Positions 2,219 to 23,896 of a DNA stretch of 58,173 nt are shown piece after piece. This DNA is from Nitrospirota bacterium. Lineage in GTDB: Bacteria > Nitrospirota > Thermodesulfovibrionia > Thermodesulfovibrionales > UBA6898. The number at the start of each line of letters is the position of its first letter. Position 1 is the stretch's first letter. The notes below the pieces were generated by a model that was not told the DNA's origin, ran no database searches, and was given only the letters and a program-made list of their open reading frames with translations. The stretch covers positions 1 through 58,173 of the forward strand of contig JAJXTV010000023.1 of the NCBI GenBank assembly GCA_021783515.1, given 5' to 3'. The position numbers were made by a program, and so were the translations under genes.

Positions 2219-4513
2219 TTATTCTTTAAAATAAGAAGAAAAATAGTGCGAATAGGAGCCGTACTTCAGGTCATTCGTCTTGACTCCGTTTAGCACGACC
2301 CCCAGCAGATTGACGTTGACGCTGCCGAAGATCTGCTTGGCCGCGGTGACCGCGCTCCTGGGCGTCTCTCCCGCCTTTACGACCAATATTGTCCCGTCCA
2401 CCATACTGCTGAGAAGAACACTGTCCGGCATTCCCATCAGAGGGGGCGCATCTATGATCACGAAGTTATAGATTTCATACAGCGCGTCGAGCAGGTCTTT
2501 CATCTTCCGGGAATGAAGCAATTGGGAAGGATTCAACGGCGGCGGCCCTGATGTAAGGATGCTAAGCCCGTTGACGGAAGTCGGCTTGATCAGTTTGTCG
2601 TCGTTTATGCCCGCGAACGCGGATAAACCGGAGATGCAGGTAGAAAGGCCTGCCTTATTGTCCACCTCGAAGGAATTGTGCAGTTTCGGTTTCCTCATAT
2701 CGGCATCGATGATAATTCCCTTGCCCAGCGACTCGGCAAGCGCCGAGGCTATGTTTATGCACACAGTGGTCTTTCCTTCTTTTTCTCCTGGACTCGTCAC
2801 GAGGATCGTCTTAGGGGCCTTTGTCGCAGACGACAGCACAATGAAGGTACTGATCGAACGGAATGCCTCCGCGATAGGGTTCGATATGTCCGAACTGATG
2901 ACTTTCGGCCGGGTTACTGCGTTCAACTGCTGCTGATACGGTATCATCCCCAGGGAGGGCATGCGCAGCCTGTTTTCGATTTCCCCCGTGTCCTTCACGG
3001 TATTATCGAAATATTCGACCAGAAAGGCAAGACTAATGCCGCCGCCGAGCCCAAAAATTACCGCCATTAAGAAGTTCATCAGCTTGTTCGGTCTATCAGG
3101 CTGTTTTGAGTATATCGCACGGTCAACTATCTGAATATTGGTCGATTTGCTGAGCGCTGCTACCCCCACTTCGTTCATTTTTTTCAGCAGGCTATTGTGC
3201 AATTCTTTATTGACATCAACCTCTCTCTGGAGCGTCTGGTACTGAACAGCGCGTTCCTGAAAATCGAGGACCTTGGTTTTTTGGGCTTCGAGGGCGGCCT
3301 TCAGATAAGCCTCTTTCTTCAGTGAAGCGCGATAATCCGATTCCACTGACTTCACGAGGTTGGACTTTTCCAGCGCAATGCTTTCCCGGATAGCATCCAA
3401 CTGGCTTTTCAGGTTCTTCATCTTCGGATAATCCGGCGTAAAGGTCCTTAACAGGTTGCTATACTCCGCCTCCAGTGTCGCATACTGGCTCTGGAGCCCC
3501 TGAATCAAGACATTATTGAGGATGACAGGGTTATTGGTCCCTGACTCTTTAATCTGCCTGTAGAGGGCCTCTTTCTGTATCCTTTCGGTAGTTTCCCCGC
3601 TCAAGGCAGAAGATATCTCGGCGAGCTTCGTGCCCATTACACTTTTCTTATCGTTGTCAATAAATATAATTTCATTTTTCGATGCATACCTGTTGAGGCG
3701 CTCTTCGGAGTCTTCCACCTTTTGTTTTGCAATGTCAATCTGTCTTTCGAGGAATTCTTTTGCCTGCCTCCCTGCGTCGACCCTGCTGTCGAGATCGTAG
3801 CTTATGTACTCATCGGCCACGGCATTGGCAACCATCATCGAAATCTGCGGGTCGTTGGAGGAAAAACTTATCTGCAGCAGTTCAGAGTTCTTTAACGGGG
3901 CAATATCAAGCCTTGCGGTCAGGGCTTTGCTCAGGTATGCGGGTATCGGCTCGAGGGAGGAATCATTTCTTTGCGCCTGCGGTACGCTGCGTTTCCGTTC
4001 CCCGTCTCGTGACACGAACGACGCCACGCTCATGGCAGCACTCTTTATCGGATGCGTGAGGGCGCTTATCGCGGCGGAGAGTCTGCTTTCTACCGGCATG
4101 AAGCCGGGCTTCTTGTCGAGGGCCAGCCTCTGGATCACCCGTTCTGCGAGATTTCTGCTCTTCAGTATCTCTCTCTGAGTCTCGACATGTTCAGAGTCAA
4201 GATCGGGGGTCAAGCTCCGATAGGGAATTACATCCGGCATCTGTTTGTCGATTTTAATGACTACGGTAGATTTGAAGATAGGTATCATCATTGCGGTAAA
4301 GATCGCGGTGATAACCAAAACGGACGCGAAGAAAGACAGCACTATCCATTTCCTCTTTACAATGACGCCGATATAATCTCTTAAGTGGACGTCCTCCTGC
4401 TCCGGCGGGTCCGCATGAGGGGAGTACTGGGGAGGAGGGAAGTTCTGAGGGGCGTAAGGCTTCACTTCATACCGTCGCCCGCGGGCGCCGTTTCCGTTTT
4501 GTACCTCGTACAT
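2219..4513 (-). CDS. Wzz-domain polysaccharide co-polymerase fused to a BY-type tyrosine kinase (Wzc/ExoP-like)
   Basis: This 764-residue protein has a cytoplasmic Pro-rich N-terminus, a first transmembrane helix near residues 53-75, a long periplasmic Wzz/GNVR region with coiled coils (about 80-440), a second helix near 485-505 and a cytoplasmic kinase domain. The kinase shows Walker A (SPGEKEGKTT), Walker A' (IIIDADMRKP) and Walker B (VIIDAPP). The C-terminus carries a tyrosine cluster (YGSYSHYFSSYFKE), the expected autophosphorylation site. The family sets chain length and couples polymerisation to export through Wza. It lies 10 bp after the Wza-like gene, and the PHP phosphatase downstream is the likely antagonist. 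Confidence 0.92.
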   Translation of the reverse strand: MYEVQNGNGARGRRYEVKPYAPQNFPPPQYSPHADPPEQEDVHLRDYIGVIVKRKWIVLSFFASVLVITAIFTAMMIPIFKSTVVIKIDKQMPDVIPYRSLTPDLDSEHVETQREILKSRNLAERVIQRLALDKKPGFMPVESRLSAAISALTHPIKSAAMSVASFVSRDGERKRSVPQAQRNDSSLEPIPAYLSKALTARLDIAPLKNSELLQISFSSNDPQISMMVANAVADEYISYDLDSRVDAGRQAKEFLERQIDIAKQKVEDSEERLNRYASKNEIIFIDNDKKSVMGTKLAEISSALSGETTERIQKEALYRQIKESGTNNPVILNNVLIQGLQSQYATLEAEYSNLLRTFTPDYPKMKNLKSQLDAIRESIALEKSNLVKSVESDYRASLKKEAYLKAALEAQKTKVLDFQERAVQYQTLQREVDVNKELHNSLLKKMNEVGVAALSKSTNIQIVDRAIYSKQPDRPNKLMNFLMAVIFGLGGGISLAFLVEYFDNTVKDTGEIENRLRMPSLGMIPYQQQLNAVTRPKVISSDISNPIAEAFRSISTFIVLSSATKAPKTILVTSPGEKEGKTTVCINIASALAESLGKGIIIDADMRKPKLHNSFEVDNKAGLSTCISGLSAFAGINDDKLIKPTSVNGLSILTSGPPPLNPSQLLHSRKMKDLLDALYEIYNFVIIDAPPLMGMPDSVLLSSMVDGTILVVKAGETPRSAVTAAKQIFGSVNVNLLGVVLNGVKTNDLKYGSYSHYFSSYFKE

Positions 4514-4523
4514 GACCTGCTCC

Positions 4524-5564
4524 TTAATATCCTTTCCCGAGACTGAAGACCCCGAAATTCAGAGTCCCCGCCAGCCCCTTGAGGAAAGTCTTTATCCCGC
4601 TGCCCGCAACGATGATGATATCCTTGTCTTTTATCTCGGAATCGGCCGAGTTTCCCGCCAAAATTGAGTCGTAGTCGACGGTGATCACTTCCCTCTGGGG
4701 TTTGCCGGTGTCCCGGTAAATTTTTATGTCAGAATGGGAAGCTTCATAATTGAGGCCTTTAGCCGTGCTGAGGGCCTGCGTCACCGTCATCTTGCTCTGC
4801 AACGGAAACTCCCCGCTCTGCCCGACTGCTCCGGTGACAAAGAATATTCCTCTCTTGGGGATTTGAATCACATCGCCCGAATGGACGGGAATGTTCAGTT
4901 CAGCCTGCCCGTTCATCAACAGTTCATCAAGATCAACGACGATCTTGTCGCCTGCTTCTTCCCGGGATTCTCCGGAGCTCCGCTGGATTATGCAAATACT
5001 GCCCGCCAGCTCTGTAAGCCCTCCGGCGAGAGAGAGCATATCGAGAAGGTATTTCTGGCCCGAGACATAGAATACCTGGGGAGTCTTTACCGCTCCCAAA
5101 ACAGAAACTTGCTGGCTTCGGAACTCTTTGACGAAAACGCTGACCGCAGGTTCTTTTATATACTTCTGCAACTTGTCCGCTATACTCGATTCGAGTTCGG
5201 AGACCGTGAGCCCGGCGGCCTTGAGCTCGTCAAGCAGAGGAAGCTTAATATACCCGCGCGCGCTTACTCTCGCCATCGTTTTTAATTCGGAAACCTGGAA
5301 GACGTCGATTTCAAGCAGGTCTTCGGGACCTATCTGGTAGTCAGCCGAGGAGTGGCCGTTTTCGGCCTTCATGCTGCTCCTGACGATCTTGCCGTTCAGC
5401 GTATCGGTCATTGCGGGCGCGGGTGCGTTGTATCTCAGTAATGCGGACTGGGTAAGATCTTCGTTGGACGCGCAGGAAGTCAGGACGAGGAAGAAGAAGA
5501 TAAGGGCAATAATAACACCCCCGAACAGTTCGTTGTGCAGTATCATGCCGATCTTGTGTTTCAT
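4524..5564 (-). CDS. Polysaccharide export outer-membrane lipoprotein (Wza/GumB-like, SLBB)
   Basis: This is the first gene of the minus-strand export operon. From the chosen start (MKHKIGM, 346 aa) a lipoprotein signal is seen: hydrophobic GVIIALIFFFLVLTSCAS with the lipobox LTSC. A Poly_export domain follows (YQIGPEDLLEIDVFQVSEL through FVKEFRSQQVSVLGAV) and then SLBB-like repeats (TPQVFYVSG and GIFFVTGAVGQSGEFPL). The frame stays open to 5663, but that start would bury the signal peptide behind about 33 charged residues, so 5564 (or the next Met at 5546) is preferred. Known relatives form the outer-membrane channel that receives polysaccharide from the Wzc-like partner. Confidence 0.85.
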   Translation of the reverse strand: MKHKIGMILHNELFGGVIIALIFFFLVLTSCASNEDLTQSALLRYNAPAPAMTDTLNGKIVRSSMKAENGHSSADYQIGPEDLLEIDVFQVSELKTMARVSARGYIKLPLLDELKAAGLTVSELESSIADKLQKYIKEPAVSVFVKEFRSQQVSVLGAVKTPQVFYVSGQKYLLDMLSLAGGLTELAGSICIIQRSSGESREEAGDKIVVDLDELLMNGQAELNIPVHSGDVIQIPKRGIFFVTGAVGQSGEFPLQSKMTVTQALSTAKGLNYEASHSDIKIYRDTGKPQREVITVDYDSILAGNSADSEIKDKDIIIVAGSGIKTFLKGLAGTLNFGVFSLGKGY

Positions 5565-5710
5565 GCCTGAAAAATTCTCAATTCTTCCATTCCTGAAAAC
5601 GATTTCACGCACCTGCTCAATGCGTCCCTTAATAACTTTATCTTTTTGCAAGACGCGTACCATGCGGTGCCTGGGGCGCCCTGACCGGAGGAGGACTGAG
5701 AACGCCGCAA

Positions 5711-5736
5711 ATAAGTGCCATTACGTAATGACTTAT
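5711..5736. promoter_or_regulatory. Extended palindrome upstream of the polysaccharide operon
   Basis: The core CATTACGTAATG (5719-5730) is a perfect 12-bp palindrome. It is extended by ATAAGT on the left and its complement ACTTAT on the right, with two extra bases in the left arm. It lies about 150 bp upstream of the chosen Wza-like start. An operator for a dimeric regulator is the simplest reading; the regulator is unknown. Confidence 0.4.
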
Positions 5737-5799
5737 CGCGCCCGAACCCTTTATCCTCGCGTTGAATGAACCGACGCCGGGAGATAAGGGCGCCTGGCA

Positions 5800-5816
5800 T
5801 GTATCCTTTGGATACA
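5800..5816. promoter_or_regulatory. 17-bp dyad TGTATCCTTTGGATACA
   Basis: This is a perfect 7-bp inverted repeat with a 3-base centre, in the same control region as the 5711-5736 palindrome. It may be an operator or upstream activator site. The sequence gives no clue to the protein that binds it. Confidence 0.35.
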
Positions 5817-6109
5817 GCTCTATGCATGTAGCGATATTTGTGGTGCATTAAGATACATTTTGGCCAGAGTATTCAAGGCGTGAAATGACATGTTTTCCCG
5901 CATTTCTCACGACTATGCGCCCTGCGCCGGCCACAATCGCCATATGCGGCGGAAACGATAATGTTCTTCGTTTCGGTATATTTCTTGCTTATAGCTAACA
6001 CGGAACGGGCTTCTCCGATCAGCCTGCGTGGCATGAGCATATCGTGATTCCGGGACGAGCGGAAGCGGAGAGCTGGTTATGAAAAAGGCATTGAATAATC
6101 GGAGCGTTT

Positions 6110-8404
6110 ATGATCTATAATTATCTCATGGAAAATCCTGCGCTCCTCGAAAAAAAGTTCTCTATCCTCGAGGAAATCTCCCATGCCATCGTCGTTACGG
6201 ACAACATCGACGCCGTGGCGAATCTCATGCTCGACCTCGCCATAAATTACACGAATGCCGAAAAAGGCTCCCTCATGCTGGTCAACGAATGCGGAGAGCT
6301 CTTTATCCGTGCAGCACGGGGCATCGACTTACAGCTGGTCAATATCTACAAGGAAAAAATAGGGGAAGGCATAGCAGGAGTCGTTGCCAGGAATCGGCGT
6401 CCCATCCTTGTCCAGGACATCGAAAATGACAAGAGGTTTCGATCGAAAAAGAGGAACCACTACAGGACAAAGTCCTTTATTTCATGTCCGGTCATATGCA
6501 AGAACAGATTGCTCGGGGTCTTCAACATCAACGACAAGAAAAGCGGGGAGCCTTTTACGGATGATGAGTTTGTACTCCTGAAGATCATAGCAAATCAGGC
6601 GGCGATAACCCTTGAGAACGCCCTTTTGATGACGCAACTTCGATCAAAGGCCGCCGAACTCGAAGAGATAAATAAAAAACTGATAGAGTCCGACGCGTCA
6701 AAAACCGAATTTCTCACGCGCGTATCCCACGAATTGCGAACGCCTCTGAATTCCATTAAGGGCGCCATATACTACCTGGGGCAGAACAGGCACGTGGGGA
6801 GAGAAAAGATGCAGGAGTTCTTCGATATTATCGCGCATGAAACAGACAACCTCGGCCGCAGCGTCGAAAATCTCCTTAACTTCCTGAGGCTCGAAGATGA
6901 AACCAGGATCATGAAGAAATCGGTGATAGATATTCCGTCCCTTCTCAACAATGAGGTGCTCAATTCTGGGCTCCTGGAGACGTTCCTTATGAGAAGGAAC
7001 CTCCAGGTGACGATCGCCATTCAGAAAGATATCTCCCATATCGTGGGAGATAAGGTGAGGGTAATTCAGTTGTTTATCAATATGATAAAGGGGTTGGGCA
7101 GCTATCTGGAGCCGGGAGACAGGATAGAGATGAACGTATACGAGCGCGACTTTGTCTATATCACCCTTCTCCTTCCCAGACAACTGCCGGAGTCCCTCAT
7201 GAGCGACAACCCGCATGCCCTGCAGGTGTTTCAGGAAGAGCATTCCGAAGATAAGGCACGGCTGCACCTCGCCAGAAAAATTCTGGATATCCACAGGTGG
7301 AGACTCGATTACTCTGTTTCGGAAAACGGCTCCACAGTCTCGCTGGCCATCCCGAAGGGCATCAAACAAAAGATAGAGGCCATTGCCGACGCTACCATGG
7401 AGATGTTCGTGGAGCTCATTTCAGCCCTGATGAATCTCAAGGTATGCTCCATCATGCTCACCGACGAATTTATCGATGAGCTTTTCATAAAATGCGCGAA
7501 GGGCCTTGATCATGCAATAATAAGGCAAACAAGGATAAAACTGGGAGACAGTATCTCCGGCTGGGTCGCCTTCGAAGGCAAGCCGCTTCTGATCGAAGAC
7601 ATAGAAAGCGATCCCCGCTTTCACAGGAAATACATTCCTCATTACAACACTAGGTCACTTCTTTCGCTGCCCTTGAAGGTCGATGGCAAAGTCATCGGGG
7701 TTATCAATCTCAACAACAAAAAATCGCAGCGGGCGTTCACGATGCAGGACCTCTATATCGCCGAGGCTTTCAACGAACGCATATCCTATTTTATCGGAAA
7801 GCTCTACTCCGGCCAATTCAGCGGGGAAGAACTTAACGAATTTATCACCTCTTTTGACAGTCTTTTGGATGCGGGAAGGAAATATCACAAAAAAGACGGT
7901 TTTCTGCCTGATCTGATAGGCATAATAATGAACAAGCTGGGGGCCGGCGAGGAAGACGTCAGACGTGCGCTCTACGTCTCGGTTATCTATGATCTGGGGG
8001 TGGTGCTTATCGATGAAATCACCGAAGGGAAACGGGATCTTTCCCCCTCGGAAATCTGCTCCCTGAAGGCGCATCCGCACACTACCGTAGGGTTGATCAA
8101 TCACTTTGAATTTTCCGAAGACGTAAAGAAGGCGATTATCCATCACCACGAGCGGTACGACGGAACCGGCTATCCTGACAGCTTGAAGGGCGAGGAGATT
8201 CCCTTCGTTGCCCGAGTGCTTTCAGTAGCAGATGCATTTGATGCAATGACCAGAAACAACCGCCATAAGAAGCCGCTTTCCAAAGAAGATGCACTTCGCG
8301 AGATAGTGCGGGGCTCGGGGACCGCCTATGATCCTACGGTTGTGAATGCCCTCCAAAGCGCTCTGGGAGAGATAGCTTGCCCTCCGGCGCGGGCATCAAT
8401 GTGA
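6110..8404 (+). CDS. Hybrid signalling protein: GAF, histidine-kinase-like core, GAF, HD-GYP-like domain
   Basis: This is a 764-residue soluble protein with no transmembrane segments. The order is GAF (about 15-170), short coiled coil, HisKA-like helix with the H-box SHELRTPLNSIKG (His207), a degraded HATPase-like region (about 255-415), a second GAF (about 422-565) and an HD-GYP-like domain (about 595-755). The ATPase part lacks a recognisable N-box Asn (VIQLFINMIKGLG) and G-boxes. The HD-GYP part keeps HHHERYDGTGYP, but the expected leading His-Asp reads YD (SVIYDLGVVL). It may therefore act by binding rather than catalysis. GGAG lies upstream of the ATG. It is transcribed divergently from the export operon, so a role in surface-polysaccharide signalling is possible. 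Confidence 0.8.
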   Translation: MIYNYLMENPALLEKKFSILEEISHAIVVTDNIDAVANLMLDLAINYTNAEKGSLMLVNECGELFIRAARGIDLQLVNIYKEKIGEGIAGVVARNRRPILVQDIENDKRFRSKKRNHYRTKSFISCPVICKNRLLGVFNINDKKSGEPFTDDEFVLLKIIANQAAITLENALLMTQLRSKAAELEEINKKLIESDASKTEFLTRVSHELRTPLNSIKGAIYYLGQNRHVGREKMQEFFDIIAHETDNLGRSVENLLNFLRLEDETRIMKKSVIDIPSLLNNEVLNSGLLETFLMRRNLQVTIAIQKDISHIVGDKVRVIQLFINMIKGLGSYLEPGDRIEMNVYERDFVYITLLLPRQLPESLMSDNPHALQVFQEEHSEDKARLHLARKILDIHRWRLDYSVSENGSTVSLAIPKGIKQKIEAIADATMEMFVELISALMNLKVCSIMLTDEFIDELFIKCAKGLDHAIIRQTRIKLGDSISGWVAFEGKPLLIEDIESDPRFHRKYIPHYNTRSLLSLPLKVDGKVIGVINLNNKKSQRAFTMQDLYIAEAFNERISYFIGKLYSGQFSGEELNEFITSFDSLLDAGRKYHKKDGFLPDLIGIIMNKLGAGEEDVRRALYVSVIYDLGVVLIDEITEGKRDLSPSEICSLKAHPHTTVGLINHFEFSEDVKKAIIHHHERYDGTGYPDSLKGEEIPFVARVLSVADAFDAMTRNNRHKKPLSKEDALREIVRGSGTAYDPTVVNALQSALGEIACPPARASM

Positions 8405-8530: not shown

Positions 8531-8550
8531 TAAAGATTAATACACCGAGT

Positions 8551-8637
8551 GCCGGTGTGGTGGAACTGGCAGACGCGCCGGACTCAAAATCCGGTTGGGG
8601 CAACCCAGTGTGGGTTCGATTCCCACCACCGGCACCA
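8551..8637 (+). tRNA. tRNA-Leu (anticodon CAA, reads UUG)
   Basis: All arms can be folded by eye. The acceptor stem is GCCGGTG with CACCGGC (8627-8633). The anticodon stem CCGGA/TCCGG encloses CTCAAAA with anticodon CAA at 8585-8587. The T-arm is GTGGG-TTCGATT-CCCAC. The long variable arm is typical of leucine tRNA. Discriminator A and an encoded CCA end follow (8635-8637). No integrase or duplicated 3' end is seen beside it. Confidence 0.97.
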
Positions 8638-8686
8638 CAACTTTCGATCTGTACAACGCACCCGTTTTTCTCTTATACTGAAAGCA

Positions 8687-9382
8687 ATGACACGTTTGAT
8701 GAATAGGGGTGCCTCGCTTTCGGGCTTCCTCTTTCTTTTTCTCTGCCTCTGTCTTCCCGTCTCCTGCTCGAAAAAGGTCTCCGGAATCAGCGGTCAGGTG
8801 CTCGACGGAAAGGGGCATCCGATGTCGAATGTGAAGGTCGTCGCGCTCCAGGAAAAGCCGGTCGGCGGCTACGGCAAGATCGAGACGGTCACCGGCCGTG
8901 ACGGCCGCTTCTCCCTTAAGGGCTGTTATCCCGAAGCGGGCTACAAGCTCCTTCTGCATTCCGAGAGCACCGATCTGCGCGACGTCACCGTAAAAAGCGG
9001 GGCGGCCGGAACGGAAACGCAGCTGCCCTCTCCGGTCGTCTTCAGATTCCTCTCCTCCCCGGGAGGGATCATCACCGATACCAGGACGGGGCTCCAGTGG
9101 GCGATGGATTCCGGCATGAACATGACATGGGATCAGGCCAGGCAATATGCAAAACGGCTCCGCCTCGGCGGGTTCGATGACTGGCGGCTGCCGAAGAGGT
9201 CCGAGCTGAAGGCCCTCGGCAAGATCGACGCCGACTTCCCTATCACCGAATGCTGCGTCTGGTCGTCCGAGGCGGCGGAGGCAAAACGGGCATGGGTCGT
9301 GGACCTTTACCGGTCTGTTGAAGACACCGCGCTCATATCGAACAACTCGTATGTGGCGCTGGCGGTCCGACCGTCCAAATGA
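8687..9382 (+). CDS. Lipoprotein with carboxypeptidase-regulatory-like and DUF1566 (Lcl C-terminal) domains
   Basis: The chosen start (MTRLMNRGASL) gives 231 residues. The signal peptide ends in the lipobox LPVSC. Residues about 30-100 (VSGISGQVLDGKGHPMSNV and on) look like a carboxypeptidase-regulatory/CNA-B-type beta-sandwich. The C-terminal half is DUF1566: GIITDTRTGLQWAMD, then WDQARQYAKRLRLGGFDDWRLPKRSEL, ending NNSYVALAVRP. DUF1566 proteins are surface or periplasmic and poorly understood; some bind collagen or other ligands. The frame runs open into the tRNA, but translation from there is not credible. The stop overlaps the start of the next gene (ATGA). Confidence 0.75.
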   Translation: MTRLMNRGASLSGFLFLFLCLCLPVSCSKKVSGISGQVLDGKGHPMSNVKVVALQEKPVGGYGKIETVTGRDGRFSLKGCYPEAGYKLLLHSESTDLRDVTVKSGAAGTETQLPSPVVFRFLSSPGGIITDTRTGLQWAMDSGMNMTWDQARQYAKRLRLGGFDDWRLPKRSELKALGKIDADFPITECCVWSSEAAEAKRAWVVDLYRSVEDTALISNNSYVALAVRPSK

Positions 9383-22582: not shown

Positions 22583-23896
22583 TCAGGCGACGATATGCTG
22601 GGGTTCGATATTGCTCGCAAAGATCTCTACCAGTTCCTGATCGAACTGGGTCCCCGCTTTCCGCTTCAGCTCCTCGACCGCTTCGTGAAAGCCGACCGGC
22701 ACCCGGTATGAGGTGGTGCTGATCATCGCATCGAAAGCCTCGGCGATCGCGATAATCCTCGCCTCGATCGGAATATCCTCGCCTTTGAGGCCGGAAGGAT
22801 AGCCGTAGCCGTCGTATCGCTCGTGGTGGTAAAGGATAAAAGGAGCGATATCCTCGTAAAAGTTAATCGGCTTGATCATCTCATAACCGATCGAGGGATG
22901 CCGCGAATATTCCTCTTTCCGGAAGGCGTCGTCCGAGCTGATCTTCAGGAAGCCGACGTCGTGGAGCAGGCTCGCAAAATAAAGCCTCTTCTTTTCTTCT
23001 TCCGTCATGTTCATGCCCTTTGCGATGATATTGCCGTACCTCGCCACTCTCCGTGAATGGCCTCTCTTCTCGGGGATATGGAAGTCAATCGCCTCCAGCA
23101 GCATCTCGGTAAGATGGATTTCATAGTTCTTCTGGTCCTCGAAGAACTTCGTCTGGATGATCGAGATCGCGGCCTGTCCGGCAAGATACATGATCACCTC
23201 TTCGTCCCTGTCACGGTAGGCATACCCCCCCTGCTTGTTGAGCAGTTCGAGCACCCCGATAACGCCGGTCCCCGTCATCAGGGGGACGCAGAGGACTGAT
23301 TTGGTTTCGAACCCCGTCATCGCATCGACGTCGCGGGTGAACCGGGGGTCCTGGCTGGCATCCGCGATGCGCACCGGCTCCCCGTTCTTCGCCACCCATC
23401 CGGCGATGCCTTTTCCCGTTTCGACCGACGTTCCGACCAGCTGCTCCGCTTTTTCGCCCTTTACGATCTTGAAGATGAGGGCGTCGCCGTCGACCAGCAG
23501 GATCGATCCGGCCGAGGAACTCGTGATCGTCAGGGCATGATCAAGGATCTTCTCCAGGAGGATGTCGCCATATATCTCCTGCCGCAGATCGCTCGTGATG
23601 CCGAGTATGCGATCGAGTCTGTTCCCGTAGTCCCTGACGATCCGGAGCACCTGCCTCGATATGCTCACGTTGTAGTAGAGGCCGACCACCGAGAGAAAGA
23701 AGGTGATGCCGATGATCACCCCGATCGAGATGTCCGGCATGAAATTCAGAAAAGTCACTTCGGGGGCGAACAGGTATCTGACGATGACCGCCAGGAGGGT
23801 GGCGATGACGAAGGCTACTATAGCGATGGAAAAGCGGAATTTCCTGCTGATTTCCGCGATGACCGAATTATGACCTCTATGGTCCTCTTCCATCAT
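22583..23896 (-). CDS. Membrane GAF-HD-GYP protein, probable c-di-GMP phosphodiesterase
   Basis: From the ATG at 23896 the product is 437 residues; a TTG at 23902 is the alternative. Two transmembrane helices (about 22-45 and 57-80) precede a GAF domain (about 105-265) and an HD-GYP domain (about 275-430). The catalytic motifs are complete: HSRRVARYG, LLHDVGFLKI and HHERYDGYGYPSGLKGEDIP. It should hydrolyse c-di-GMP and oppose the cyclase at 17306. A promoter-like TTGACA-17-TAAAGT (23930 down to 23902) would start RNA almost at the ATG, so the message may be leaderless. A GC hairpin sits at 23946-23963 between this gene and hisD. Confidence 0.9.
   Translation of the reverse strand: MMEEDHRGHNSVIAEISRKFRFSIAIVAFVIATLLAVIVRYLFAPEVTFLNFMPDISIGVIIGITFFLSVVGLYYNVSISRQVLRIVRDYGNRLDRILGITSDLRQEIYGDILLEKILDHALTITSSSAGSILLVDGDALIFKIVKGEKAEQLVGTSVETGKGIAGWVAKNGEPVRIADASQDPRFTRDVDAMTGFETKSVLCVPLMTGTGVIGVLELLNKQGGYAYRDRDEEVIMYLAGQAAISIIQTKFFEDQKNYEIHLTEMLLEAIDFHIPEKRGHSRRVARYGNIIAKGMNMTEEEKKRLYFASLLHDVGFLKISSDDAFRKEEYSRHPSIGYEMIKPINFYEDIAPFILYHHERYDGYGYPSGLKGEDIPIEARIIAIAEAFDAMISTTSYRVPVGFHEAVEELKRKAGTQFDQELVEIFASNIEPQHIVA

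Follow-up and report, generated by a model that had tools for sequence, protein, structure and literature searches.

The 58,173-nucleotide contig JAJXTV010000023.1 of a Nitrospirota bacterium (assembly GCA_021783515.1), analysed whole and referred to here as the window, contains on its forward strand an open reading frame (ORF; 6110–8404, ATG start, TGA stop) for a 764-residue protein in which a histidine kinase-like half is fused to an HD-GYP domain. A first-pass annotation had suggested that both catalytic modules of this protein are damaged and that it probably serves in binding or scaffolding. The gene and its parts, all on the forward strand, are as follows.

6110–8404, forward: GAF/HisKA/pseudo-ATPase/GAF/pseudo-HD-GYP protein, 764 residues (ORF, Pfam; relatives in 40 of 395 genomes)
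6206–6613, forward: GAF1, residues 33–168 (Pfam GAF)
6698–6898, forward: HisKA, the dimerisation and histidine phosphotransfer (DHp) domain, residues 197–263 (Pfam HisKA, E 5.9e-13)
6728–6730, forward: codon CAC of the phospho-acceptor His207 (His kept in 40/40)
6932–7375, forward: degenerate ATPase (catalytic and ATP-binding, CA) region, residues 275–422, with the N, G1 and G2 boxes lost (family alignment; no HATPase_c match)
7388–7789, forward: GAF2, residues 427–560 (Pfam GAF_3)
7934–8341, forward: degenerate HD-GYP domain, residues 609–744 (Pfam HD_5; model resembles DvhD and PmGH)
7988–7993, forward: YD, residues 627–628, replacing the HD motif (H221 D222 of PmGH; alignment)
8168–8176, forward: GYP motif, residues 687–689 (alignment)

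The HD_5 match is a shortened one, beginning at profile position 31 of 170.

Of 395 genomes from the phylum, 40 yielded a relative (E ≤ 1e-60) when searched with the window protein; a profile built from 39 sequences found relatives in 41 at E ≤ 1e-90. The nearest, 85% identical, lie on two contigs of public metagenome-assembled genomes labelled Nitrospirae, and two genomes (G319 and G373) belong to the same genus as the window's own genome, G000 (3.16 Mb). Our first alignment comprised the window protein and 40 other sequences, 41 in all, and a later one 39; kinase-box counts refer to the 40 sequences that cover the region and HD-GYP counts to 34 domains. L076 and L077 were omitted from alignment A3 and from the tree, which is unrooted in substance (a midpoint was used for drawing), has two long branches and is not used here to claim an order of losses. 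The HD-GYP part is present in 34 of 41 members; it is missing outright from L062, L065 and L072, and both GAF2 and HD-GYP are missing from L079 and L080. Judged from the alignments, the common core of the family is GAF1, DHp and the degenerate ATPase.

The phospho-acceptor helix had been described as normal, and it is so throughout the family. Its H-box, SHELRTPL, begins at residue 206 of the window protein, making His207 the phospho-acceptor; this His is present in all 40 sequences, and the motif H[ED]xx[TNS] in 38. Five DHp positions, including H207 and R210, are invariant, against none in the ATPase stretch. Of the 40 sequences, 35 have lost the N-box Asn (N347-type, in EnvZ numbering), which would chelate Mg, and five retain it; the window protein has Gly328. 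The G1 box (DxGxG) is lost in 39 and present in one, and the G2 box (GxG) is lost in 36 and present in four, a pattern match in L057 being uncounted because it falls outside the box. At the N, G1 and G2 positions the window protein reads INMIKGLGSYL, LLPRQLPE and ARLHLARK, and it has no Pfam match to HATPase_c even at E ≤ 1, in line with the earlier claim that the ATPase lacks its N- and G-boxes. The Glu and Thr next to the phospho-acceptor His would assist its chemistry, as the DxxN motif beside the His does in CckA. The conserved H-box points to phosphotransfer or phosphatase chemistry, as far as residue conservation can suggest, rather than to a mere scaffold.

We regard the ATPase stretch as a degenerate ATPase and not a new domain because a weak or good HATPase_c match (E ≤ 0.01) survives in 13 of 39 members, and because the family profile aligns with the kinase HK853 over profile positions 183–412 (E about 1e-29). 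The same alignment argues against an ATP site in another register. On its own, the window sequence can be aligned with HK853 no further than the N-box, so that the CA register is taken from the family. A predicted DHp–CA structure of the window protein and two close relatives reached a mean predicted local distance difference test (pLDDT) of 46.5 and a predicted TM-score (pTM) of 0.36, too low for inference.

The HD-GYP half was compared with PmGH, whose tri-iron ligands are E185, H189, H221, D222, H250, H276, H277 and D305, and whose activity is abolished by alanine at H221 or K225 (PMC4159591). At the H221 position the 34 domains have Tyr in 29 cases, His in four and Phe in one. K225 is lost from all of them (Val631 in the window protein) and D308 from 33, the window protein retaining the Asp; the E185 position is Tyr in 30, the window protein included; and H189, which is not His in the window protein, is retained only in L073–L075 (f26 sequences). 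D222, H250, H276, H277, D305, G284, Y285, P286 and I294 are kept in all 34, as are the HHE and GYP motifs, and the window protein retains five of the eight PmGH metal ligands. The first eight of these nine kept residues are all among the 20 invariant of 151 positions (hypergeometric p 2e-8, relatedness ignored). The earlier reading of this domain, HHERYDGTGYP kept and the leading HD changed to YD, was correct (residues 679–689 and 627–628), and with H221, K225 and the ATP boxes lost both catalytic modules do look damaged. The alignment with relatives that the first-pass annotation had proposed finds the losses conserved across dozens of them.

Among nucleotide contacts, the guanine-contacting Arg (R314 of PmGH, R650 of DvhD) is kept in 29 of 34 domains, and the K317 position is basic (Lys or Arg) in 29. 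The window protein keeps Tyr688 and Lys720, and has Asn717 in place of the Arg, with an Arg next to it at 718. An AlphaFold model of residues 565–764 has a mean pLDDT of 67, which is moderate confidence. Its best Foldseek matches are DvhD (E 1.2e-5), PA4781 (2.0e-4) and PmGH (4.1e-4), with VIA Z values of 13.6, 11.7 and 11.6 respectively, and it superposes on DvhD with a root-mean-square deviation of 5.2 over 166 residues. On this model, the HD-GYP fold is present and its catalytic residues are lost; structure prediction, suggested earlier as a check, was thus informative for this half and not for DHp–CA. The c-di-GMP (cyclic di-GMP) complex of PmGH was captured in a subunit with G-site iron only, so an HD-GYP domain with a damaged M–H side could bind without cutting, a principle for which DvhD (below) is the proof. 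The retained subset (five metal ligands, GYP, and the Arg in 29 of 34) points to c-di-GMP binding, as read from the alignment. The binding part of the proposed role would thereby have a likely ligand, and the kept H-box would take the protein beyond the scaffold that had been suggested.

Losses shared this widely are more than a chance event: other HD-GYP proteins of the same genome were read by pattern, and HD[IV]G is kept by seven of eight; the eighth yielded no reading, and four further matches in the genome lay outside that reading. A second HD-GYP protein in the window (22631–23101, reverse strand) keeps the HD and has Phe at the K225 position (LLHDVGF). L081, on contig 11 of G000 at about 82.1–84.3 kb, is an HD-GYP protein with HDIGK and a C-terminus that is bacteriohemerythrin-like by eye.

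The ratio of nonsynonymous to synonymous substitution rates (dN/dS) in three same-genus pairs was 0.086–0.101 for the whole protein, 0.149–0.233 for the CA part, 0.101–0.210 for the HD-GYP part and 0.031–0.065 for the GAF domains. The degenerate parts evolve faster than the GAF domains, yet far from neutrally. We reject a pseudogene on the dN/dS of about 0.1 in three pairs together with frames that are full length in most relatives. We conclude from these comparisons of sequences that the pseudoenzyme family is real, conserved and functionally maintained, and is not one damaged gene.

A few members depart from the common pattern. L078 has the N, G1 and G2 set intact, paired with a YD-GYP, whereas L073–L075 keep H189, H221, the G2 box and N347, with G1 changed; L068 retains only N347 of the kinase boxes. 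These five sequences form one group in the tree (support 100/99). In the assembly, the reading frame of the L078 gene (G007, reversed, 5.5–7.9 kb) is interrupted between the DHp and ATPase parts. From the comparison of L078 with L073–L075, the kinase and HD-GYP losses appear to be separable. In L077 (G186, 6853–7725) the copy stops after residue 290, still behind a diguanylate cyclase, and neither GAF2 nor HD-GYP could be traced anywhere in the 14 kb.

As the first-pass annotation had noted, the pseudoenzyme gene is divergent from a polysaccharide export operon, which in the window includes the following genes.

4524–5663, reverse: Wza-type polysaccharide export protein (Poly_export, SLBB)
2219–4513, reverse: Wzc-type chain-length determinant/tyrosine autokinase-like protein (Wzz, GNVR, AAA_31)

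The listed start of the Wza-type ORF overlaps the sigma-54-like element described below; judged by eye, translation more probably begins near 5564 (MKHKIG..., lipoprotein-like). Neighbours of the pseudoenzyme gene were counted within 6 kb at 41 loci, many of them cut by contig ends; the gene names of the relatives' neighbours (Wza, Wzc, NusG-like) come from cluster membership or inspection by eye, with one or few members per cluster scanned. NtrC-family regulators are found near 16 loci, CRP-type regulators near 12, GGDEF proteins near 11 (in eight cases on the same strand, 23–363 nt upstream), Wza-type genes near 10, Wzc-type near nine, PrsK near four and exosortase near three. GG[DE]EF is kept by all 12 proteins of the GGDEF cluster, one of which is in the window but unlinked. 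With two Poly_export genes in the window's genome, the chance that one would lie within 6 kb is about 1%. L061 and L079 carry diguanylate cyclase, pseudoenzyme gene, Wza and Wzc in that order on one strand. The export genes, divergent in the window, are co-directional in L053, L055, L061, L079 and L080; two neighbours within one family are not independent, though here the arrangement differs.

At L056/L117 (G345), a histidine kinase, an NtrC-type regulator, two palindromes, a sigma-54-like site and export genes stand in a row beside the pseudoenzyme gene. The regulator, which there lies between the pseudoenzyme gene and the export operon and is a softer candidate partner than PrsK/PrsR, has relatives at E ≤ 1e-110 in five of six genomes, none in G319, and a partial relative in the window's genome (59% identity over residues 5–360 of 445). 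The presence of this relative does not prove a partnership. PrsK occurs in 15 of 40 genomes with a pseudoenzyme relative and in 67 of 355 others; PrsK/PrsR as an obligatory partner is ruled out for the window, PrsK being absent from its genus. Downstream of the pseudoenzyme gene lies a tRNA-Leu gene (anticodon CAA; 8551–8637, forward), which overlaps the 5' end of a mechanically called ORF at 8549–9382, so that the true start of that ORF must be further downstream.

Between the divergent genes we find two candidate control elements of the export operon.

5647–5662, reverse: sigma-54 -24/-12-like element with 1 mismatch, of the polysaccharide-export operon (position and conservation)
5800–5816, no strand assigned: palindrome TGTATC-N5-GATACA, candidate activator site (upstream activating sequence, UAS) of the divergent operon (unique in the genome)

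Sites were scored against the sigma-54 consensus. Because 1.22 such sites are expected in the window by chance and two are found, it is position and conservation, and not the match alone, that support the element. A -24/-12-like site with at most two mismatches lies upstream of Wza at 10 of 10 loci, and with at most one mismatch at eight; sites of the latter kind precede 18 of 292 other genes of the same loci and occur in 3.3% of random stretches. The window's genome contains the sigma-54 gene rpoN. No sigma-70 promoter or terminator was found in 5560–6200, where 1.1 and 0.7 respectively would be expected by chance.

In the window, 146 bp separate the centre of the palindrome from the -24-like element downstream of it; the exact palindrome occurs once in the 3.16-Mb genome. 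It was spotted by eye in aligning the window, L042 and L043, and then tested; those three loci are therefore discovery cases. Before Wza it is exact in the window, L042, L043, L077 and L079 and has one mismatch in L053 and L080, and in these seven of the 10 Wza loci its centre lies 111–211 bp upstream of the -24 element. Among the seven Wza loci outside the discovery set, it occurs with at most one mismatch in four (L053, L077, L079 and L080); L061 has two mismatches, and in L055 and L056 the palindrome is not found before Wza. The Wza of L056 is remote (26% identity), and at that locus two palindromes and a sigma-54-like site precede an upstream gene of the cluster. Of 283 other genes, one has the palindrome and sigma-54-like pair, and that one belongs to the L056 export cluster. 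Exact palindromes occur in seven of eight genomes, G225 having none; three further exact copies (two in G319, one in G279) are intragenic and have no sigma-54-like site. In G279, an exact palindrome and a perfect sigma-54-like site precede a Wza gene (53% identical) that is not beside the pseudoenzyme gene. Palindrome and sigma-54-like element are, as far as can be read from the DNA, what an NtrC-type activator needs. The pseudoenzyme gene itself has a sigma-54-like site with at most one mismatch upstream in six of 39 relatives (1.9% of random stretches), four of the six coming from one family or genus.

Our preferred reading, offered tentatively and at somewhat less than an even chance, is that this maintained pseudoenzyme would be a node for phosphotransfer or phosphatase action that responds to c-di-GMP, has no kinase activity itself and targets a sigma-54 activator of polysaccharide export. 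GAF1, and perhaps GAF2, would bind a small ligand, and the degenerate HD-GYP domain would bind c-di-GMP without cutting it; both signals would alter the dimeric DHp helices. The DHp, not phosphorylatable by its own ATPase, would pass phosphate between response regulators or remove it by means of His207 and the adjacent Glu and Thr. The target would be an NtrC-family sigma-54-dependent activator, switching the divergent export operon through the palindrome at 5800–5816 and the -24/-12-like element at 5647–5662. What we infer is the biochemistry of these five steps, which partner is involved and in which direction it is driven; the support from the sequences consists of the residue losses and their conservation, purifying selection, the retained residues, linkage to export, diguanylate cyclase and NtrC-type genes, and the promoter elements. 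A more specific version is possible, and somewhat less probable: a c-di-GMP-gated phosphorelay node in which both fused enzymes have turned into sensing and relay parts, the phospho-acceptor His is the last catalytic residue, and a dedicated palindromic operator serves the sigma-54 polysaccharide operon.

Several observations weigh against our preferred reading. The guanine-contacting Arg is replaced by Asn, Gly or Asp in the window protein and its two same-genus relatives, and because this genus has changed it, c-di-GMP binding is least sure in the window protein itself. RpfG, which lacks two of the eight ligands (the E185 and H189 positions), is yet active (PMC4159591). Five relatives are without the HD-GYP part, so the c-di-GMP input would be dispensable in some lineages. 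The window's genome lacks a full-length equivalent of the diguanylate cyclase found beside relatives, the best match there being 35% identical over residues 353–658 of 674, though the genome has 19 GGDEF matches. PrsK has no match in G000 at E ≤ 1e-60, and the best PrsR match there, 426 bits, is below the family cut-off of 502.6. The upstream region of the pseudoenzyme gene in the window lacks a good sigma-54 site (best, 3 mismatches). Finally, the conserved His also fits a dimerisation surface.

A rival reading is a pure pseudokinase scaffold like DivL or RetS, whose DHp would only dimerise or bind a kinase or regulator and in which His207 would stay unphosphorylated. The family profile does match the DivL (E 5.2e-22) and RetS (2.9e-17) structures, more weakly than HK853, and most members lack any ATP box. 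We think a scaffold doubtful, since the H-box is the best conserved part, with His and Arg210 unchanged in all 40 sequences and H[ED]xx[TNS] retained by 38, and a bare scaffold need not keep it. Another histidine kinase, for example a neighbouring PAS-type kinase, might instead lend its ATPase or phosphorylate His207 in a mixed dimer. A HisKA/HATPase_c kinase cluster (one member scanned) is found within 6 kb at eight of 41 loci, and in L056 the kinase, NtrC-type regulator, palindrome with sigma-54 site and export genes are consecutive; most loci, however, have no such kinase neighbour, and this makes trans-phosphorylation unlikely.

It is more improbable that the domains are still enzymatic, with a weakly active binuclear HD-GYP and an unusual ATP site. 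E185, at whose position 30 of our 34 domains have Tyr, is also absent from the Y/F subfamily of HD-GYP proteins, and RpfG does without two ligands (PMC4159591); a HATPase_c match at E ≤ 0.01 is left in 13 of 39 members, and L078 has N, G1 and G2. Against this, H221 and K225, both needed in PmGH, are gone here, H189 is found only in the three f26 sequences, and G1 and G2 are missing from the window protein. That the gene is simply decaying, as its lost boxes and the G186 copy broken at residue 290 (L077) might suggest, is scarcely credible given a dN/dS of about 0.1 in three pairs and frames open over their full length in most relatives.

Regulatory roles are known for dead kinases and for dead phosphodiesterases, and one chain in which both activities are lost and the protein is kept phylum-wide would amount to a natural experiment on the conversion of enzymes into switches. 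Because members with an intact ATPase or a better-kept HD-GYP survive, domain swaps can address both the order in which the losses came and what they do. The palindrome and sigma-54 element would provide a ready output reporter, and suggest how a slime operon is controlled in uncultivated Nitrospirota-type bacteria.

Each half of the protein has precedents. A dead-kinase and dead-HD-GYP fusion was not found described in the open-access literature searched, mostly surveyed at listing level, and the combination is new as far as that search reaches. In PhyT, Spo0B and ChpT degenerate kinases serve as phosphotransferases (PMC5898713), and like the window protein they keep a phosphorylatable His beside a degenerate ATPase; it is on the precedents of these proteins, CckA and SgmT that we favour a phosphotransfer or phosphatase node. 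The HRxxN motif carried by PhyT-type proteins is not found in the window protein, which has a HisKA-type HELRT, two GAF domains and a dead HD-GYP (PMC5898713). DvhD of Desulfovibrio vulgaris (PDB 9rbz), the best structural match of our model, is likewise an HD-GYP protein that has lost its catalytic residues: HD is SQ and HH is MN, there is no hydrolysis, and c-di-GMP is bound with a dissociation constant of about 99 nM (PMC13090378). No metal is seen in DvhD, whereas D222, H250 and HH are invariant here; DvhD, which acts on a protease, carries periplasmic dCache and PAS domains (PMC13090378), and the window protein has GAF and DHp domains. PA2572 of Pseudomonas aeruginosa, a YN-GYP protein, also has Tyr for His, undetectable hydrolysis and a regulatory role, but is described as REC-YN-GYP (REC, receiver), without a fused kinase-like part (PMC3411652).

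SgmT of Myxococcus xanthus resembles the window protein in being an orphan GAF kinase whose C-terminal nucleotide-turnover domain is a c-di-GMP receptor in matrix control; it differs in having an active kinase, a receiver and a GGDEF domain, where the window protein has a dead ATPase, no receiver and an HD-GYP end (PMC3509222). In CckA of Caulobacter, c-di-GMP acting on a kinase-type protein stimulates phosphatase activity, assisted by the DxxN beside the His, although CckA is an active kinase and c-di-GMP acts through its PAS-B domain (PMC4853435). The output side resembles the PrsK/PrsR system of PEP-CTERM systems, with its NtrC-type regulator and sigma-54 promoters near exopolysaccharide genes; there a comparable motif pair has been assigned to PrsR, with a mean motif-to-promoter spacing of 62.8 nt, against 111–211 bp from centre to -24 here (PMC1569441). 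PrsR-type genes adjoin several relatives of the pseudoenzyme gene.

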